A DNA stretch of 37,119 bases from Hyphomicrobium sp. (GTDB lineage: Bacteria > Pseudomonadota > Alphaproteobacteria > Rhizobiales > Hyphomicrobiaceae), in contig NZ_JAIELN010000015.1 of NCBI RefSeq assembly GCF_019753045.1, forward strand, positions 1-37,119, written 5' to 3'. A model generated the notes under the pieces. It had not been told where the DNA came from. It did no database searches and worked only from the letters and a program-made list of their open reading frames with translations. The position numbers were made by a program, and so were the translations under genes. Positions 2,925 through 9,600 of this stretch are shown here, in pieces; within the stretch, counting starts at the first letter, position 1, and each line of letters opens with the position of its first letter.

Positions 2925-3404
2925 TTAGCGCTTCGAGAACTGGAAGGACTTGCGCGCCTTGACCTTGCCGTACTTCTTACGTTCAACGACGCGGCTGTCG
3001 CGGGTCAGGAAGCCCTGCTTCTTCAGGACACCACGAAGGTCCGGCTCATAATAGGTGAGCGCCTTCGAGATGCCGTGACGAACCGCACCGGCCTGACCCG
3101 AAAGTCCGCCGCCTGCGACCGAAATACGAATGTCGTATTGCGTCGAGCGGTTGGCGAGGTTGAGCGGCTGCTGCAAAAGCATCTGCAGCACGGGACGGGC
3201 GAAATAAGCCTTGAAGTCCTTGTTGTTGACCGTGATGAGGCCCTTGCCGGGCTTCAGCCAGACGCGGGCAACGGCGTTCTTCCGCTTGCCGGTTGCGTAA
3301 GCGCGGCCAAGCTTGTCGAGCTTCTGCGTCCGGACAGGCGCTGCCTGCGGCTCGGCGCCCTTGACGGTGGCAAGATCGGCCAGGGTCTTTGTTTCAGTAG
3401 CCAT
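2925..3404 (-). CDS. rpsI: 30S ribosomal protein S9
   Basis: 159 residues; a core component of the small subunit whose C-terminal tail reaches the P-site tRNA. The signature [21 protein letters not shown], the [15 protein letters not shown] segment and the basic C-terminal end RKSFQFSKR are all present. The roughly 30-residue N-terminal extension before the core is usual in alphaproteobacteria. It starts 5 bases after the rplM stop, so the two form one transcription unit. Confidence 0.98.
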
Positions 3405-3409
3405 GGATC

Positions 3410-3871
3410 TCAGACCCTCACATTCTTACGGTTGAGCTTCGCGACATCGAGCTTTTCCGGGTTCTGCGCCTCATGGGGATGCGCGCCGCCCTTATAAACT
3501 CGGAGGTTGCGCATGATCTCACGATGCAGAGGACCGCGTGCGAGCATGCGCTCGACGGCCTTCTCGATGATCCGCTCGGGATGCTTGCTGTCGAGGATCT
3601 GGCGCGGCGTGCGCTCTTTGATGCCGCCCGGATAGCCGGTGTGCCGGTAATAGACTTTGTCTTCACGCTTGGCGCCGGTGAAGACGACCTTCTCGGCGTT
3701 GATGACGACGATGTTGTCGCCGCAATCGACGTGAGGCGTGTAAATCGGTTTGTGTTTGCCCTTGAGGCGCGTCGCGATGAGAGCAGCAAGTCGGCCGACA
3801 ACGAGCCCTTCGGCGTCGATGAGAACCCACTTCTTCTCCACCGTGGCCGGCTTGGCGACATAGGTAGACAT
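3410..3871 (-). CDS. rplM: 50S ribosomal protein L13
   Basis: 153 residues, an early-assembling large-subunit protein. The [18 protein letters not shown] motif, [16 protein letters not shown] and the [15 protein letters not shown] segment are diagnostic. The start is fixed by AAGGAG at 3880-3885, 8 bases upstream. First gene of the leftward operon with rpsI. Confidence 0.98.
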
Positions 3872-4044
3872 TATTGAAGCTCCTTGGCGGATGGCTGCGC
3901 ACGCTTCAAACGTCTACTGCGCGCTGCATTCCGAGAAGCGGCGTGCATACGCGAAAACACGAGCGCGAAGCAAGAAGAATTTTCATTCGCCAGGAATATT
4001 GTTCAGAATCAATGAATTAGCTTGTGTGGTAATATTCTACCGCC
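3872..4044 (-). promoter_or_regulatory. rplM leader and presumed promoter region
   Basis: 173 bases separate the rplM start from the left edge of transposon 1. The Shine-Dalgarno site (AAGGAG) is clear; an A/T-richer stretch at about 3970-4040 is the likely promoter area, but I find no convincing -35/-10 pair. The transposon has cut this region off from whatever lay upstream. Confidence 0.4.
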
Positions 4045-4052
4045 AAGGGTCA
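4045..4052. repeat. Target-site repeat, copy 1 (left of element 1)
   Basis: AAGGGTCA, one mismatch from the AAAGGTCA copies at 6569 and 9593. It directly precedes the left inverted repeat of element 1. IS1595 elements are known to make 8-bp target duplications. Confidence 0.75.
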
Positions 4053-4076
4053 GAGGATTGTCGGCTTTACAAACCC
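4053..4076 (+). repeat. Left inverted repeat of element 1
   Basis: Begins GAGGATTGTCGGC and matches the reverse complement of 6545-6568 except at positions 3, 8 and 16. Position 16 lies in what is the -35 box (TTGACA) at the right end; here it reads TTTACA. Confidence 0.8.
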
Positions 4077-4130
4077 AAGCGGGTTTTCAACCTCCGAGCG
4101 CATGGAGGCCGCCCGATGACAGGCGCAGCC

Positions 4131-4310
4131 TTAGCGTTTGGAAGAGGGCTTCTTGGCTGGTGTCGGCTTTGCTGGCGCAGCCTTGGCTATCGCACCCAGG
4201 GCGCGGTCAAAAGCTTCTGGCCGGTCGTCAGTTTCAAGTTCACGCGCTTTGTCGATGAACTTCTGGCGTTGGGTGCGTGTGTCGGGCTCTGCGGCTTTGG
4301 GTTTGCTCAT
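4131..4310 (-). CDS. Small basic cargo protein of element 1 (59 aa)
   Basis: A 59-residue open frame from ATG at 4310. It begins MSKPKAAEP and ends in a Lys/Ala/Pro-rich tail. I believe it is real because element 2 encodes a similar 53-residue protein on the same strand: both share the pattern R..Q...F...A followed by F..A(L/M)..IA.A and a basic C-terminus. No function is known to me; size and charge would fit a nucleic-acid-binding or transposase accessory protein, which is a guess. Its start is 43 bases from the divergent nuclease-like gene. The Shine-Dalgarno is weak. Confidence 0.7.
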   Translation of the reverse strand: MSKPKAAEPDTRTQRQKFIDKARELETDDRPEAFDRALGAIAKAAPAKPTPAKKPSSKR

Positions 4311-4353
4311 GGCTTAAGTCTACACTGGTTCGTGGCGTGCCGGGAGGTGTGCC

Positions 4354-5532
4354 ATGAATGAACCTGGGTATGCGCCCCTTATTCCAAGCCTTCCTGAGGG
4401 AGTGGCGATCCTCCGATGGCTTGCGCTCGGTGCTGAACTGCGCCTTAGCGATAAAGGCTGGTACTTCTCAGATACAAAACCTGCGCATTGGAAATCGATC
4501 ACGTTTGCAAAATCTTCGCTACAATCCTTGCAAGAAGACCATCTAATTGAATGGCTGCTAGAGGACGGATTCGCCTCTCAGGAAGAAGCGGGCACGAAAA
4601 TTGGCATCGTCGAGCGCGGCAAGCGCTTCCTATCGAAGATCGATTTTTCAAGACGGCACTTTGGAGGCTCGATGTTAAGCCCCCAAAAGAGAACAGTCTT
4701 GGCCGAATTAATAGCAGACACAAAGCAGGAAAATCCGAGCGATGACTACTTCACTGTTGCTCAGATCGTCGCCCAAAAACTCTTGATCGTCATCTTCGGC
4801 CACGACTGGCACCAGCGACACATAGTTGCCGACCGTGCCCCAACCAACTTTTTCAGGAATGCCGGGACCAGCGACCGAGATAATACGACTGGCGGAATGA
4901 GAGTTATCCAACTCGCCGAGATGATCATGAATCTTCAAGATGTTCCTGGTCTCGAGAAGAGCGTTGAGATGATAAGGGACGGCGACATCGAAAGCGGCTT
5001 TGCAGAGATTGAGGTCGGTCGGCTTTTGCATGTGAACGATTGTGATTTTCGCTTCGTTGTTCCGAGGGGAACGAAGGGCGACGACTATGATCTTGAGATC
5101 ATGTTCCAAGAATCGACTGTCTGCGGCGAAACAAAATGCAAAATCGAAAGCTCGCAGATGTCCGAGAAGGGACTGATGAACGCTTTGAGGGCTGCGCGAG
5201 GACAACTTCCGGCAGACAAACCTGGAATTATTTTTGCCGCTATTCCTCAGACGTGGAACGAGCCGGTTGCCGAGCTAGGTCCCTTCCTGAAGACGGTAGC
5301 AGAGAAGTTTCTTCAGGGTACGCAGCGCGTCGTTGCAATCAAGTTTTATACGAGCGCATTGCTTGCTACGGAGACAACGTGGGCGCCCAGAGTGTTTCTG
5401 TTAGAAGTGAATAATCCAAAGCACCGCTTCGATACAAATGCGAATTATGACATCTTTGCCGAGATGGATAAGATGCCGGATCACTGGGTCAGCCTACTCG
5501 ACGAATGCTCCAAAACAGAAGAGGAAGTCTAA
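4354..5532 (+). CDS. PD-(D/E)XK nuclease-like cargo protein of element 1
   Basis: 392 residues; start supported by GGGAGG six bases upstream. I do not recognise a named family. The N-terminal ~95 residues look like a winged-helix region (LRWLALG..., LSDKGWYF..., GIVERGKRFL). In the C-terminal half a pattern fits the restriction-endonuclease fold: an acidic helix (E213-E220, IESGFAEIEVGRLL), D246 in YDLEI and E259-T-K261 in CGETKCK, then a helix and a hydrophobic strand (PGIIFAAIP). This is the classical D...ExK arrangement, so a nuclease or a decayed one is the best reading. It converges with the transposase, 9 bases apart. Restriction or element defence is possible; no methylase partner is seen. 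Confidence 0.75.
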   Translation: MNEPGYAPLIPSLPEGVAILRWLALGAELRLSDKGWYFSDTKPAHWKSITFAKSSLQSLQEDHLIEWLLEDGFASQEEAGTKIGIVERGKRFLSKIDFSRRHFGGSMLSPQKRTVLAELIADTKQENPSDDYFTVAQIVAQKLLIVIFGHDWHQRHIVADRAPTNFFRNAGTSDRDNTTGGMRVIQLAEMIMNLQDVPGLEKSVEMIRDGDIESGFAEIEVGRLLHVNDCDFRFVVPRGTKGDDYDLEIMFQESTVCGETKCKIESSQMSEKGLMNALRAARGQLPADKPGIIFAAIPQTWNEPVAELGPFLKTVAEKFLQGTQRVVAIKFYTSALLATETTWAPRVFLLEVNNPKHRFDTNANYDIFAEMDKMPDHWVSLLDECSKTEEEV

Positions 5533-5541
5533 CGCTTCCCC

Positions 5542-6498
5542 TTATGTTTTGGCGGTCGACTCTCTGTCAGGCTGTCGATACGTCAACCGCTTGCCCTTGA
5601 TACCCAGGAGCGCTTTCACGGTCCGCTCGGCATCGTCAACGCCAAGCTTCACGCGATTGCTATAGCGGAAATCGAATTCCGCCAAATACCGGTGCAAGTG
5701 CTTTTCTGAACAGTGCTGATAAACGCCCTTCATTCCCCGCTTGAAGATCGAGAAGTAGCCTTCAATCGTGTTCGTGTGGATCTCGCCACGGCCGTACTGA
5801 CCAGCCGAGTGATTGACGAACGCGTGTAGGAATTCCTTGTCCAGGTTGCGGTAAACGCCGGCATCGTCCGTGATCACCTTCGCCTCTTGTGCAAGGTTCT
5901 CGCGAATGATCGGCAGAATGTTCTGCTGGTTCGCTTCGTCGATGTGGAAGCTGCGGGCTTCGCCGTCGCGGCTGACGAGCGTCAGGATGGCGCGCTTGTG
6001 CGCCGTACCAGCCTTGCGGACCTTGCCCTTGTTGCCGATGAACGTTTCATCGATCTCCACGATCGAGCCGCCGCCGCCCATCGGAGGCAGCAAGCCGCCA
6101 GAGCGCATCGCTTCGCGAATGCGGTGGCTCATGAACCAAGCGGCCTCGTAGTTGATCTCCAAGGTGCGGTGCAGCTGATGGCTCGAAATGCCCTTCTTGG
6201 ACGAGCACATCAAATGCACGCCCTGGAACCACTTGTGCAGCGGGATGTGGCTGGACTCGAAAACCGTGCCGACCCGGACCGTGAACTGCTTCCGGCAATG
6301 GCCGCACTTCTTGAGACCCGGACGCTCGACGCCTTCCGGGTTTTTCTTGCTCGGCTTCGTACGGACGCCGCTCAACTTATAGATGCGCTCGTTGCCGCCG
6401 CAGTGGGGGCAAACCGGGCCGTTCGGCCAGATTAGGCTCTCCAGCTTTTCGAAAGCCGCAGTTTCGTCGTGGAAATGAGCCTGATTGAGCACCGACAT
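5542..6498 (-). CDS. tnp: IS1595-family transposase (element 1)
   Basis: 318 residues. N-terminal zinc ribbon with C30-x2-C33 and C65-x2-C68, then HRTLEINYEAAWFMSHRIREAM, then the catalytic core of the ISXO2/IS1595 type: D150 (VEIDETF), D211/D212 (VITDDAG), and N243/E246 in the HTNTIEGYFSIFKRG block. All expected acidic residues are present, so it looks active. It is clearly homologous to the second transposase at 8622-9527, especially in the core, but not a recent copy: the zinc-ribbon loop and both ends differ. Translation starts after a sequestered Shine-Dalgarno (see hairpin). Confidence 0.95.
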   Translation of the reverse strand: MSVLNQAHFHDETAAFEKLESLIWPNGPVCPHCGGNERIYKLSGVRTKPSKKNPEGVERPGLKKCGHCRKQFTVRVGTVFESSHIPLHKWFQGVHLMCSSKKGISSHQLHRTLEINYEAAWFMSHRIREAMRSGGLLPPMGGGGSIVEIDETFIGNKGKVRKAGTAHKRAILTLVSRDGEARSFHIDEANQQNILPIIRENLAQEAKVITDDAGVYRNLDKEFLHAFVNHSAGQYGRGEIHTNTIEGYFSIFKRGMKGVYQHCSEKHLHRYLAEFDFRYSNRVKLGVDDAERTVKALLGIKGKRLTYRQPDRESTAKT

Positions 6499-6506
6499 GA
6501 CAAAAT

Positions 6507-6526
6507 CCCTTCGATTCTACGAAGGG
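6507..6526 (-). promoter_or_regulatory. Shine-Dalgarno-hiding hairpin of transposase 1
   Basis: On the transposase strand CCCTTCG (6526-6520), loop of 6, CGAAGGG (6513-6507). The 3' arm contains the Shine-Dalgarno AAGGG, 8 bases before the ATG at 6498, so the hairpin would block initiation. The 5' arm lies just after the -10 box, so a transcript from the element's own promoter would lack it. Confidence 0.65.
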
Positions 6527-6555
6527 CTATAGGGCCTTAGGGACGGGTTTGTCAA
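6527..6555 (-). promoter_or_regulatory. Transposase 1 promoter inside the right inverted repeat
   Basis: TTGACA (6555-6550), 17-base spacer, CTATAG (6532-6527). This matches the housekeeping consensus with the CTATAx -10 usual in rhizobia. The -35 is inside the right inverted repeat. The predicted start is around 6520. Confidence 0.65.
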
Positions 6556-6568
6556 GCCGATAATCGTC
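6545..6568 (-). repeat. Right inverted repeat of element 1
   Basis: Reads GACGATTATCGGCTTGAC inward and pairs with 4053-4076 at 21 of 24 positions. Contains the -35 box of the transposase promoter. Confidence 0.8.
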
Positions 6569-6576
6569 AAAGGTCA
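6569..6576. repeat. Target-site repeat, copy 2 (between the elements)
   Basis: AAAGGTCA. It is the only sequence between the two transposons and is shared as right flank of element 1 and left flank of element 2. Confidence 0.85.
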
Positions 6577-6603
6577 GGCGATATTATATTTCCCGTACCC
6601 AAC
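6577..6603 (+). repeat. Left inverted repeat of element 2
   Basis: Begins GGCGATATTATA and matches the right end except at positions 13, 16 and 17, which fall in or next to the -35 box carried only by the right end. Confidence 0.88.
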
Positions 6604-6678
6604 ACAAACGCATGGTGTTAACCTATGAAGACAGGGACACCAAAGCTGCCTAGGTGGCTTGCGAAACGGGGTACAGAC

Positions 6679-7509
6679 ATGACGGTTTGCATTGCTTTAG
6701 TCGCAGGTGGCGGTCGCCACGGCAAGATCGTCACCTGCTACGACACACTGGCGAGTTCCTCCCTCGGAACGAAGTCAATAATGTTGAAGGATAGGGCAGT
6801 TGGATTTGATTGGAGATGTCTAACGGCGGGGAATGAGGAAGAGATCAACGCTTTTGTTCCTCTTCTGTCGGCTTCCATGATGCAAGCAAAAGAGCTTGAT
6901 GAAGTGACTGCGGTCCCTCTCATTCAAGATGTTTTAAAAAAGCGAAAAACGCAGTTGGCCGACGAACTGACGCTATCAAAATGGGGGCTGTCGTTTCAGG
7001 AATTCCGACAATCTCGCGCGCAATTCCCCGACCAGATTTATCAGCAGCATTTTGACGAGGTGCAGCGGCTCCCCTTGCGCGCTGAATTTATCGTCACTGG
7101 ATTTCAAAAAACCAAGGGCGTCAGTTACGGGCCGATGATGATCGTGGTCCGCTCAGACTGGTCCGTAAGCATACAAGAAGATTTCTGCGCGATAGGGGAG
7201 GGGTCGTATCTTGCCACGGCATCTCTCATGAGACGCCATTACAGCGATGTGAAAGCGATAAATTTCGGAATTTATTGCGCTTACGAAGCAAAAAAATATG
7301 CGGAGAGCGTCCCTAGCGTTGGGACCACGACGGGATTGGCTATCTACTCTTCGGACGGTCCGGATAAGACGATAAATTCTGGCGGATTTGCGGAACTCGA
7401 TAAATTGTTCTCTGCGTATGGCCCTCGGGACGTCGAAGCGGATCTGAACTTGAAAGCTAAAATGAATGTATGGTCAGGAGACAAGTTTAAGATCGAAGGA
7501 GAAAACTGA
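6679..7509 (+). CDS. Proteasome/HslV-like Ntn-hydrolase candidate, cargo of element 2
   Basis: 276 residues from the ATG at 6679 (GGGG nine bases upstream); an ATG at 6625 would add 18 residues. With the chosen start, Met removal would expose Thr1 (MTVCIAL...), as in HslV. The layout follows proteasome-type subunits: a strand after Thr1, D22 in VTCYDT (equivalent to Asp17), K37 about 15 residues later (equivalent to Lys33), a hydrophobic turn ending LTAGNEEE, and near residue 173 GEGSYLATA followed by AYEAKKYAESVPSVGTTTGLAIY, resembling the GSG helix and last strands of the fold. Pairing of residues was done by eye, and the family is inferred. No ATPase partner lies in the element. It converges with the small ORF, 2 bases apart. 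Confidence 0.65.
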   Translation: MTVCIALVAGGGRHGKIVTCYDTLASSSLGTKSIMLKDRAVGFDWRCLTAGNEEEINAFVPLLSASMMQAKELDEVTAVPLIQDVLKKRKTQLADELTLSKWGLSFQEFRQSRAQFPDQIYQQHFDEVQRLPLRAEFIVTGFQKTKGVSYGPMMIVVRSDWSVSIQEDFCAIGEGSYLATASLMRRHYSDVKAINFGIYCAYEAKKYAESVPSVGTTTGLAIYSSDGPDKTINSGGFAELDKLFSAYGPRDVEADLNLKAKMNVWSGDKFKIEGEN

Positions 7510-7511
7510 GC

Positions 7512-7673
7512 CTATTTAGGTTTCTTATGATCCCTCGATGTCGCGGCGGCGATCTTTTTCATTGCGCTGGCAAATGACTTTCCGCTCACATCAGCACCGC
7601 TTTTCTTCGCGGCCTCTTTGAAAATCCGCTCTTGCTCTTCTCTGCTTCGCTCTGGCTCTTTGCGTTTGGGCAT
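7512..7673 (-). CDS. Small basic cargo protein of element 2 (53 aa)
   Basis: 53 residues, beginning MPKRKEPERSREEQ and ending in DHKKPK; very rich in Lys, Arg and Glu. It starts 3 bases after the KilA-N gene stop, with GGAAG upstream, so the two are probably translated from one message. Its pattern (Q..IF...A, SFASAMKKIAAAT, basic tail) aligns without large gaps to the 59-residue protein of element 1. Function unknown; conservation across two otherwise different cargoes suggests a role for the element itself. Confidence 0.7.
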   Translation of the reverse strand: MPKRKEPERSREEQERIFKEAAKKSGADVSGKSFASAMKKIAAATSRDHKKPK

Positions 7674-7676
7674 CTG

Positions 7677-8507
7677 CTATGCTTCCGGTTTCTTACGAGC
7701 GGGACGCTTGGTGGGTTTTGGTGCGGGTTCCTCTGGGGGTGCCAGCCGCGCGGCCCTTTGATCGTCAATCAGTTTGCGTACCGCCGTGCCGCTACGTTTT
7801 GACGACTGGTAGCACTCTGAGTGGCCCTGCCGATTAGCGTCCCGTATGTCTTCTGTGGCTAACGCCTCACTCAACATGACGCCTGTGAGGTCGACAAAAT
7901 TCATCTCATCGCGAAGGTTTGCGCTCGCAGGTAGATTACGATTTTTTAGTTCCTCCTTGGTCGTTCGACCTAAGAAGCCTCGGTAGATGCCGTCTGTGCA
8001 TTGTCCCATCGCCCGGCTGGACGAAACGCCATGATCTTGAAGCGTTGCTGTAAATTCCTTTCTGAGAACGCGCGACATGGCGCGCTGTGCGGCCCATCTG
8101 TTTGCATCGCCGCCAGCTTTTTGAAGTGTTTCGTCAGCTAAGAGTGGGTCTCCGCCACGAAACCTGAGATACACTTCGCGGACTTCAACGCCGAGAGATG
8201 GTTCCAAATACTCGGCGTACGAAAGCGCGATAACGGGATGGGCGTACGTGCCGCCACCCTTTCCACTCTTGGAGTAAACTACTGACCCGTCTTCGCTTTT
8301 CGCTTTAACATGGGATTTTCCCATGTTTTGGAGGGCCGCCGCGATGAGTTCAAGCGTGGTTGGTAGGCGCCGCCATTGAGGAGGAGCCTTGGACGCGGGT
8401 TCGCCGACCAAGCGCCACATGTCATTCAGGCTTAAGAAGCCGTTGCCGTCGTCTGCAATCGTGTGGCCTCGAACCGTGAGGGCATCGCCTTTTGATGCTT
8501 CGTCCAT
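7677..8507 (-). CDS. KilA-N domain protein, cargo of element 2
   Basis: 276 residues from the ATG at 8507, which has CGGAG at a 7-base distance; an ATG at 8552 would add 15 residues but has no ribosome site. The N-terminal half carries the phage KilA-N DNA-binding domain: NGFLSLNDMWRL..., PPQWRRLPTTLELI, then GKGGGTYAHPVIALSYAEYL and VREVYLRF. The middle (NRWAAQRAMSRVLRKEF) is helical, and the C-terminus ends in a Pro/Lys/Arg tail. KilA-N proteins are typical of phages and large DNA viruses, often as regulators or antirepressors. It lies 114 bases downstream of the transposase on the same strand and may be expressed from the same promoter. Confidence 0.82.
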   Translation of the reverse strand: MDEASKGDALTVRGHTIADDGNGFLSLNDMWRLVGEPASKAPPQWRRLPTTLELIAAALQNMGKSHVKAKSEDGSVVYSKSGKGGGTYAHPVIALSYAEYLEPSLGVEVREVYLRFRGGDPLLADETLQKAGGDANRWAAQRAMSRVLRKEFTATLQDHGVSSSRAMGQCTDGIYRGFLGRTTKEELKNRNLPASANLRDEMNFVDLTGVMLSEALATEDIRDANRQGHSECYQSSKRSGTAVRKLIDDQRAARLAPPEEPAPKPTKRPARKKPEA

Positions 8508-8621
8508 AATGAAGCTCCGCGAATCAATATTCACCTGCACTTTATCATGCATCGCGCAAGCGTCCCGCAGTAGCTTTCTTGTCTCTTTTTGACTGACGTT
8601 CCAACTGTTGGGAGTCGGGAG

Positions 8622-9527
8622 CTATATCGCCTCCCGATATGTCAGCCGCTTGCCGGGGGCCCCCTTGATTGCCCGTGTCGCGCGCGCTTCGTCGTTCACA
8701 CCCAGTTTGACCCGGTTTGAATACCGGAAATCGAACTCTGCCAGATAGCGATGCAGGTGCCTTTCCGAGCAATGCTGGTAGACGCCCTTCATGCCGCGCT
8801 TGAAGATCGAGTAGTAGCCTTCGATGGTGTTGGTGTGGATGATGCCACGACCATACTGACCCGCTGAATGGTTGACGAAGGCGTGCATATATTCCTTGTC
8901 GAGGTTCCGGTAGAAGCCCGCGTCATCCGTGACGACCTTGGCTTCGCTCGCAAGATTGCGCCGGATGATCGGCATGATGCTTTCTTGGTTGGCTTGGTCG
9001 ATGTGGAAGCTTCGCGCTTCGCCGTCGCGGCTGACGAGCGTCAGTACGGCGTTCTTGTGTGCGTAGCCGCCGACGACCTTCGGTGCCTGCACCTTTTTGC
9101 CGATGAAGGTCTCGTCCACTTCGACGATGCCGCCCCCACCACCCATTGGTGCGAGCGAGCCTGATCGCATGGCTTCGCGGATACGATGCGACATGAACCA
9201 AGCGGATTTGAGCGTCACGCCCAAGGCCCGATGGAGCTGGTTTGAACTCATGCCCTTCTTGCTGGACGACAGCAGGAAGATCGCCTGGAGCCAGATCCGC
9301 ATGGGGATGTGGCTCGCCTCAAAGATCGAGCCGATCTTGACGGTGAAGGGCTTGCGGCAGGCGTAGCACTTATAGGTGCCGATCCGGGTGGACTTGCCCT
9401 TCATCTTGGAGATGCGGGCCTTCTCCATGCAATGGGGGCATACCGGGCCCTCTGGCCAGATCAACGCTTCGACGAAATCGTATGCTTTGGCTTCGTCGTG
9501 GAAGTGCTCTGCGCTCAAAATGGACAT
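8622..9527 (-). CDS. tnp: IS1595-family transposase (element 2)
   Basis: 301 residues. Zinc ribbon C30-x2-C33 and C54-x2-C57, SNQLHRALGVTLKSAWFMSH, then D138 (VEVDETF), D201/D202 (VVTDDAG) and N233/E236 in HTNTIEGYYSIFKRG. All catalytic positions are intact. It is a diverged homolog of the element 1 transposase, most similar over the last 200 residues. Start fixed by AGGAG seven bases before ATG 9527; this site lies in a hairpin. Confidence 0.95.
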   Translation of the reverse strand: MSILSAEHFHDEAKAYDFVEALIWPEGPVCPHCMEKARISKMKGKSTRIGTYKCYACRKPFTVKIGSIFEASHIPMRIWLQAIFLLSSSKKGMSSNQLHRALGVTLKSAWFMSHRIREAMRSGSLAPMGGGGGIVEVDETFIGKKVQAPKVVGGYAHKNAVLTLVSRDGEARSFHIDQANQESIMPIIRRNLASEAKVVTDDAGFYRNLDKEYMHAFVNHSAGQYGRGIIHTNTIEGYYSIFKRGMKGVYQHCSERHLHRYLAEFDFRYSNRVKLGVNDEARATRAIKGAPGKRLTYREAI

Positions 9528-9561: not shown

Positions 9562-9579
9562 AAAAGTTGGGTACGTCAA
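9550..9579 (-). promoter_or_regulatory. Transposase 2 promoter inside the right inverted repeat
   Basis: TTGACG (9579-9574) followed by a TATATAT stretch; candidate -10 boxes are TATATA (9557-9552, spacer 16) or TATATT (9555-9550, spacer 18). The -35 occupies the same position in the inverted repeat as in element 1. Confidence 0.55.
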
Positions 9580-9592
9580 GTATAATATCGCC
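9566..9592 (-). repeat. Right inverted repeat of element 2
   Basis: Reads GGCGATATTATACTTGAC inward; 24 of 27 positions match the left end. Confidence 0.88.
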
Positions 9593-9600
9593 AAAGGTCA
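9593..9600. repeat. Target-site repeat, copy 3 (right of element 2)
   Basis: AAAGGTCA, identical to the copy at 6569-6576. Confidence 0.9.

Follow-up and report, generated by a model that had tools for sequence, protein, structure and literature searches.

The window analysed here, 37,119 nt of a Hyphomicrobium contig, carries a gene (6679..7509, +) whose product almost certainly belongs to the proteasome-like family by its fold and catalytic residues, and which lies inside an IS1595 transposon. We tentatively interpret this protein as a stand-alone N-terminal-threonine hydrolase of predicted proteasome-beta fold, which travels as a passenger of the transposon and may be kept as defence- or addiction-type cargo.

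The element is bounded by a 27-nt terminal inverted repeat (6577..6603, +) that is 89% complementary to its partner (9566..9592, -). A search of the genome for the 9566-9592 repeat, with up to three mismatches allowed, finds the two element ends and nothing else. The target duplication AAAGGTCA is found on both sides (6569..6576 and 9593..9600, both +), its left copy doubling as the right duplication of a neighbouring element (element 1). Between the repeats lie the Ntn gene, a small basic ORF, a gene for a KilA-N protein with a DinD-like C-terminal half (7677..8552, -; PF04383, 41.7 bits with a cut-off of 23.8) and an IS1595-family transposase, Tnp2 (8622..9527, -; PF12762, 108.5 bits with a cut-off of 27; NF033547, 185.7 bits with a cut-off of 75). 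The KilA-N protein also matches PADLOC PDC-S13 (3.3e-16) and, far under its cut-off, PRK11525 (2.4e-7). With its transposase, inverted repeats, target duplication and passenger genes, this is a passenger-carrying IS1595 transposon. Elements of this kind (tIS), such as tISCpe8 and MTnSag1, are described in the available text of PMC5704250, and resemble ours in having an IS1595 transposase, inverted repeats of ~25 bp, a target duplication and passenger genes. The cargo of tISCpe8 is lincomycin resistance according to the same text, unlike the proteasome-like enzyme and linked small basic ORF carried here. An earlier note had proposed, from the letters of the window, a peptidase-like gene carried with a KilA-N gene in an IS1595 element, and had known of no such arrangement; the repeats, duplication, transposase and PF04383 match bear out the arrangement, and the literature searched, which did not extend to the founding IS1595 paper (Siguier 2009), describes neither an insertion sequence with a proteasome-like passenger nor a linked small basic ORF in IS1595 passenger elements.

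The predicted structure of the window protein is a proteasome-type Ntn fold. Thr2 corresponds to the catalytic Thr1 of the proteasome, Asp22 to Asp17 and Lys37 to Lys33. Asp22 and Lys37 align to the beta-chain Asp and Lys and are invariant among divergent homologs, window included (12/12 rows in one alignment, 13/13 in another), while the equivalent of Gly47 is present in 10 of 12 rows, with Ala in L047 and in L057 3765-4568. Thr2 is kept in all ten proteins found without selection for Thr (those of the window, G003, both G255 elements, G028, G070, G078, G056 and G090, and the second gene of L057); most viral-contig rows had been retrieved by a pattern that demanded Thr and required ATG, and were left out of the Thr2 and start-codon tallies on that account. 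The codon preceding Thr in these ten is ATG six times, GTG three times and TTG once. Because Thr directly follows the start codon in every case, translation very probably starts there, and Met removal alone would expose Thr1. Removal of the start Met ahead of a small residue is established. The fold and the conserved catalytic triad predicted by the earlier note were thus recovered.

Several other readings of the gene were considered and set aside. A start at 6625, which would add a propeptide, is not favoured given the start codon before Thr in 10/10 unselected proteins. Lys32 is ruled out as the catalytic lysine, being Ser in P0003 whereas Lys37 is invariant, and a chance ORF or misread fold is ruled out by conservation together with the structural model.

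The PF00227 profile gives no match to the window protein at E up to 1; its cut-off is passed by five of nine relatives scanned (P0003, L006, L004, L053 and L059) and missed by L042, L047, L033 and L057. At E up to 0.1, no PADLOC family matched the enzyme of the window, of P0003 or of L042, and at E up to 0.01 ten relatives had no PHROGs family. The element contains no ATPase gene, as expected of the stand-alone enzyme that had been proposed, and no AAA+ ATPase or alpha subunit gene that would make an HslV or 20S partner adjoins the enzyme gene within it. Two further proteasome-family genes lie elsewhere in the source genome, and another member of the family was found elsewhere in each of six genomes scanned. 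By the features tested, the enzyme is not HslV, not a 20S subunit with its partner, and not connectase.

The available text of PMC8665760 (Fuchs, Alva and Lupas 2021) divides the proteasome-like family into proteasome beta, HslV, Anbu, BPH, connectase and 22 other subfamilies. With the exception of proteasome beta and HslV, members are described there as free of a propeptide, and for the 22 prokaryotic relatives the authors saw nothing in the gene neighbourhood that pointed to a particular function. The window enzyme is like this family in its Ntn fold, its Thr1/Asp17/Lys33 equivalents, its want of a propeptide and of an adjoining dedicated ATPase, and its low sequence similarity, so far as that text describes the family, and our placement is at family level. 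Unlike the family as described in that text, the genes examined here recur in transposons; the main text of PMC8665760 contains no word starting with 'transpos', 'insertion sequence', 'plasmid' or 'toxin'.

Comparison of elements suggests that the enzyme changes while the transposase half stays. In a genome of the same genus (G003), the flanking DNA is ~91 to 94% identical and a single IS1595 element occupies the same place. Its transposase is 96.7% identical to that of the window and its small protein 80%, the Ntn proteins being 38% identical. The slot of the KilA-N gene holds a DinD-like gene in G003 (PRK11525, 233.4 bits, just below the cut-off of 242), and the gene beside the enzyme there matches PADLOC PDC-S13 at 1.5e-79. 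The two elements of G255 have transposase halves 95.6% identical over 1170 bp and Ntn proteins with 23% identity over 143 aligned residues. Near-constant transposase halves combined with strongly diverged enzymes in both pairs indicate that the enzyme gene has been exchanged or is evolving very fast. The transposase of the G255 C14 element (L019 5900-6876) is broken across frames, by decay or assembly error, and the C43 copy is intact. A KilA-N or BRO-type N-terminus joined to a DinD-like C-terminal region occupies the same slot in the window (7677-8552, -) and in L002 (16-1248, +), both matching PDC-S13.

The proposal that homologs regularly stand beside IS1595 transposases held in part. Five of the eight uncut Ntn genes of sampled genomes lie in IS1595 elements (window, G003, two in G255, and G028), all five with inverted repeats and an 8-bp duplication that is exact in four and 7/8 in G003; the G090 copy, cut by a contig end, is outside this count. 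No transposase was detected near the Ntn genes of G070, G056 and G078. On viral contigs, retrieved by the start pattern and thus a set that may over-represent mobile DNA, an IS1595 transposase stands beside the enzyme in L084, while four contig loci have IS1-like sequence instead. In three of these (L042, L047 and L053) an IS1-like transposase lies tail to tail with the enzyme; L042, L044 and L048 represent one locus, as do L041 and L053. The fourth, L057, is a viral contig bearing a tandem pair of proteasome-like (Ntn) genes of divergent sequence (3765-4568 and 4893-5699, -); one of the pair has an IS1-like fragment next to it, and an IS1595 piece lies where the contig ends. The profiles used detected no transposase at six readable loci in all, those on viral contigs being L112, L059 and the phage operon group of L070. 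In L070 a proteasome-like relative (3044-3904) sits in an apparent phage operon, and the same is seen in L078, L101, L103, L104, L106 and L108.

Taken together, 10 of 16 loci with a readable 3' side have an IS1595 or IS1-like transposase (L076, L051 and G090, cut at that side, are excluded), and in all ten the genes are tail to tail with the enzyme 3' of the transposase. No inverted repeats were found around L044, L048, L047 and L084 (searched without the far end) or around the chromosomal relatives, so that the IS1-like units are only putatively complete elements. Their transposases fall below the NCBIfam IS1 cut-off, and the partial L053 copy fits the IS6 model slightly better than IS1; the Pfam IS1 cut-off is reached by L047 and L053 and narrowly missed by the partial copy of L042. 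An 18-protein tree requires three changes of the IS1595 label, at least two of them forced by well-supported branches, and two of the IS1 label, both forced in this way; gains and losses are indistinguishable in this tree, and many of its forks are weak. As label changes are forced but forks are weak, repeated capture of the enzyme by transposons appears likely rather than proven.

Few of the genomes sampled have a match, indicating that the enzyme is rare: 6/199 relatives, 3/397 of the order, 7/103 of the family and 1/28 of the family of G255. In the class (1/385) and phylum (1/398), which were covered by sampling only, the source genome was the sole match. Scans of the viral_contigs set with the protein or the alignment gave no match, phages gave none, and plasmids gave only one weak partial match (E 0.6). 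The genome_contigs search returned one locus, from a Bauldia MAG, which is the G255 C14 element.

The small basic ORF (53 aa; 7512..7673, -) and the Ntn gene converge tail to tail, their ends 2 bp apart. Homologs occur in G003, in both G255 elements, in element 1 of the window and in five of the six plasmid IS1595 loci opened (from 159 records with a related transposase), although these five loci contributed to the small-ORF profile. All five further loci retrieved by the small protein itself have an IS1595 transposase 5' of it. Relatives of this ORF accompany IS1595 transposases with widely differing cargo. They are basic proteins of ~50-70 aa with a pattern near RFxEAAREL (window 7512-7673 and 4131-4310, both -; L022-L026; L034-L038). 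The search found none at G028, at L084 or at the IS1-like loci, and G028 carries a different 53-aa ORF in that position (L032 6976-7137). A role as dedicated antitoxin is unsupported, given its presence with other cargo and the loci where it went undetected. It is probably an accessory gene of the transposon group and not a partner of the enzyme, which has no constant partner gene of the kind that marks a two-gene toxin-antitoxin system.

Element 1 (4053..6568), immediately left of the Ntn element, is a second IS1595 element at the same site, separate from the first and with different cargo. Its repeats (4053-4076 and 6545-6568) are 21/24 alike, and its target duplication, AAGGGTCA/AAAGGTCA, matches at 7/8 positions. 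It encodes a transposase (5542-6498) 67.5% identical to that of the Ntn element, a small basic ORF (4131-4310, -) and a 392-aa ORF of unknown family (4354-5532, +) that had no Pfam or PADLOC match. A stretch of the latter, YDLEI...CGETKCK, resembles by eye a PD-(D/E)xK nuclease motif. The window holds two passenger-carrying IS1595 elements stacked at one site, with the middle copy of the target duplication common to both.

Among the products of genes that accompany related transposases are PIN proteins, a HigB-like toxin paired with an HTH protein, and a nucleotidyltransferase; a DUF3800 protein and a protein matching HEPN below threshold also occur. This is a company of toxin-antitoxin and defence genes. 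Repeats enclose the cargo set in five of eight loci tested (L026, L034, L035, L036 and L038) and were not found for L022, L024 and L037; the test left out L023, L025 and L039. The tail-to-tail slot is filled by the protein with the sub-threshold HEPN match in L024 (2532-3356) and by the DUF3800 protein in L026 (5498-7168, -). KilA-N/DinD-like neighbours accompany the enzyme only in the window and G003, and are absent at G028, both G255 elements and the IS1-like loci; since the enzyme occurs without such a neighbour, it is not tied to that gene.

We hypothesize that methionine aminopeptidase strips the start Met, which would make Thr1 the nucleophile without a propeptide, and that Thr1, aided by Lys37 and Asp22, would attack an amide bond. 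In this way the enzyme may cleave (or transfer) an amide bond in one particular protein, with no AAA+ ATPase dedicated to it; because none is encoded, that protein is probably unfolded or flexible, or else docks in a specific manner. The target could be a protein of an invader or competitor, the enzyme being kept as defence- or addiction-type cargo. Distant versions in similar elements suggest use by transposons, perhaps in defence or in transposition control. A defence or addiction role is possible and is the one we favour, over a role in transposition and then over plain cargo. For it speak the toxin-antitoxin- and defence-type cargo of related transposases and the PDC-S13 match beside the enzyme in the window and G003; against it, the enzyme itself has no PADLOC match and the DinD/KilA-N neighbour is inconstant. 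The phage-operon relative of the L070 group and the transposase-free relatives (G070, G056 and G078) fit a wider role.

Rather unlikely, in our estimate, is that the enzyme serves the transposon by limiting, maturing or timing the transposase or a host transposition factor, as an accessory that the IS1/IS1595 group has retained or has taken up repeatedly. Its recurrence with two related transposase types, 3' and tail to tail in 10/10 linked loci, would agree with this, as would its direct adjacency to the transposase in L042, L047 and L053 and the retention of a proteasome-like gene by near-identical transposase halves despite great sequence difference. However, unrelated genes fill the same tail-to-tail slot in other IS1595 elements (L034, L026), so this placement does not single out the enzyme; moreover, the enzyme is missing from most IS1595 loci examined, and its chromosomal and phage relatives have no adjoining transposase.

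It is improbable that the gene is an ordinary hitch-hiker on mobile DNA, coding for a general protease or amidase from the wider family with no defence- or transposition-tied role. The wider family does occur off transposons (G070, G056, G078, L112 and the L070 group), and passenger genes are known in IS elements (available text of PMC5704250 and PMC12888890). Yet genomes have only 0 to 7 IS1595 matches each (seven genomes), and recurrence is far above chance, at 2e-9 for 4/7 genes with the window excluded and 1e-6 for 3/6 with G003, which shares the site, also excluded, in a rough estimate that assumes random placement within 4 kb and serves as a guide only. That the enzyme is a sequence-specific protein ligase is very improbable, for although connectase is a monomeric ligase with the same catalytic fold, it has, according to the available text of PMC8665760, neither H1 nor H2, the helix pair that follows the Gly47 strand, whereas the window model has long helices (53-69 and 75-102) directly after that strand.

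TnpB/IscB of IS200/IS605 elements offers a parallel, as an accessory enzyme gene that turns up with several transposases and has no evident part in transposition. The Ntn enzyme differs in the kind of enzyme and in the transposases concerned, and its carriage is rarer. By this analogy, proteasome-fold threonine hydrolases might be a recurrent accessory of IS1/IS1595 transposons, captured more than once, swapped on a constant transposase half and serving the element through transposase control or addiction, a generalization that we regard as doubtful. The repeated, structured link to IS1595 elements and IS1-like transposases gives one proteasome-like branch a testable context, in which protection of the host can be weighed against control of transposition, with a system of two to four genes in which to study a proteasome-fold enzyme without its own ATPase, and with a transposon whose mobility genes persist as its enzyme gene is exchanged. 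If the accessory-enzyme reading is true, this proteasome relative would do its work within the life cycle of the mobile element that carries it.
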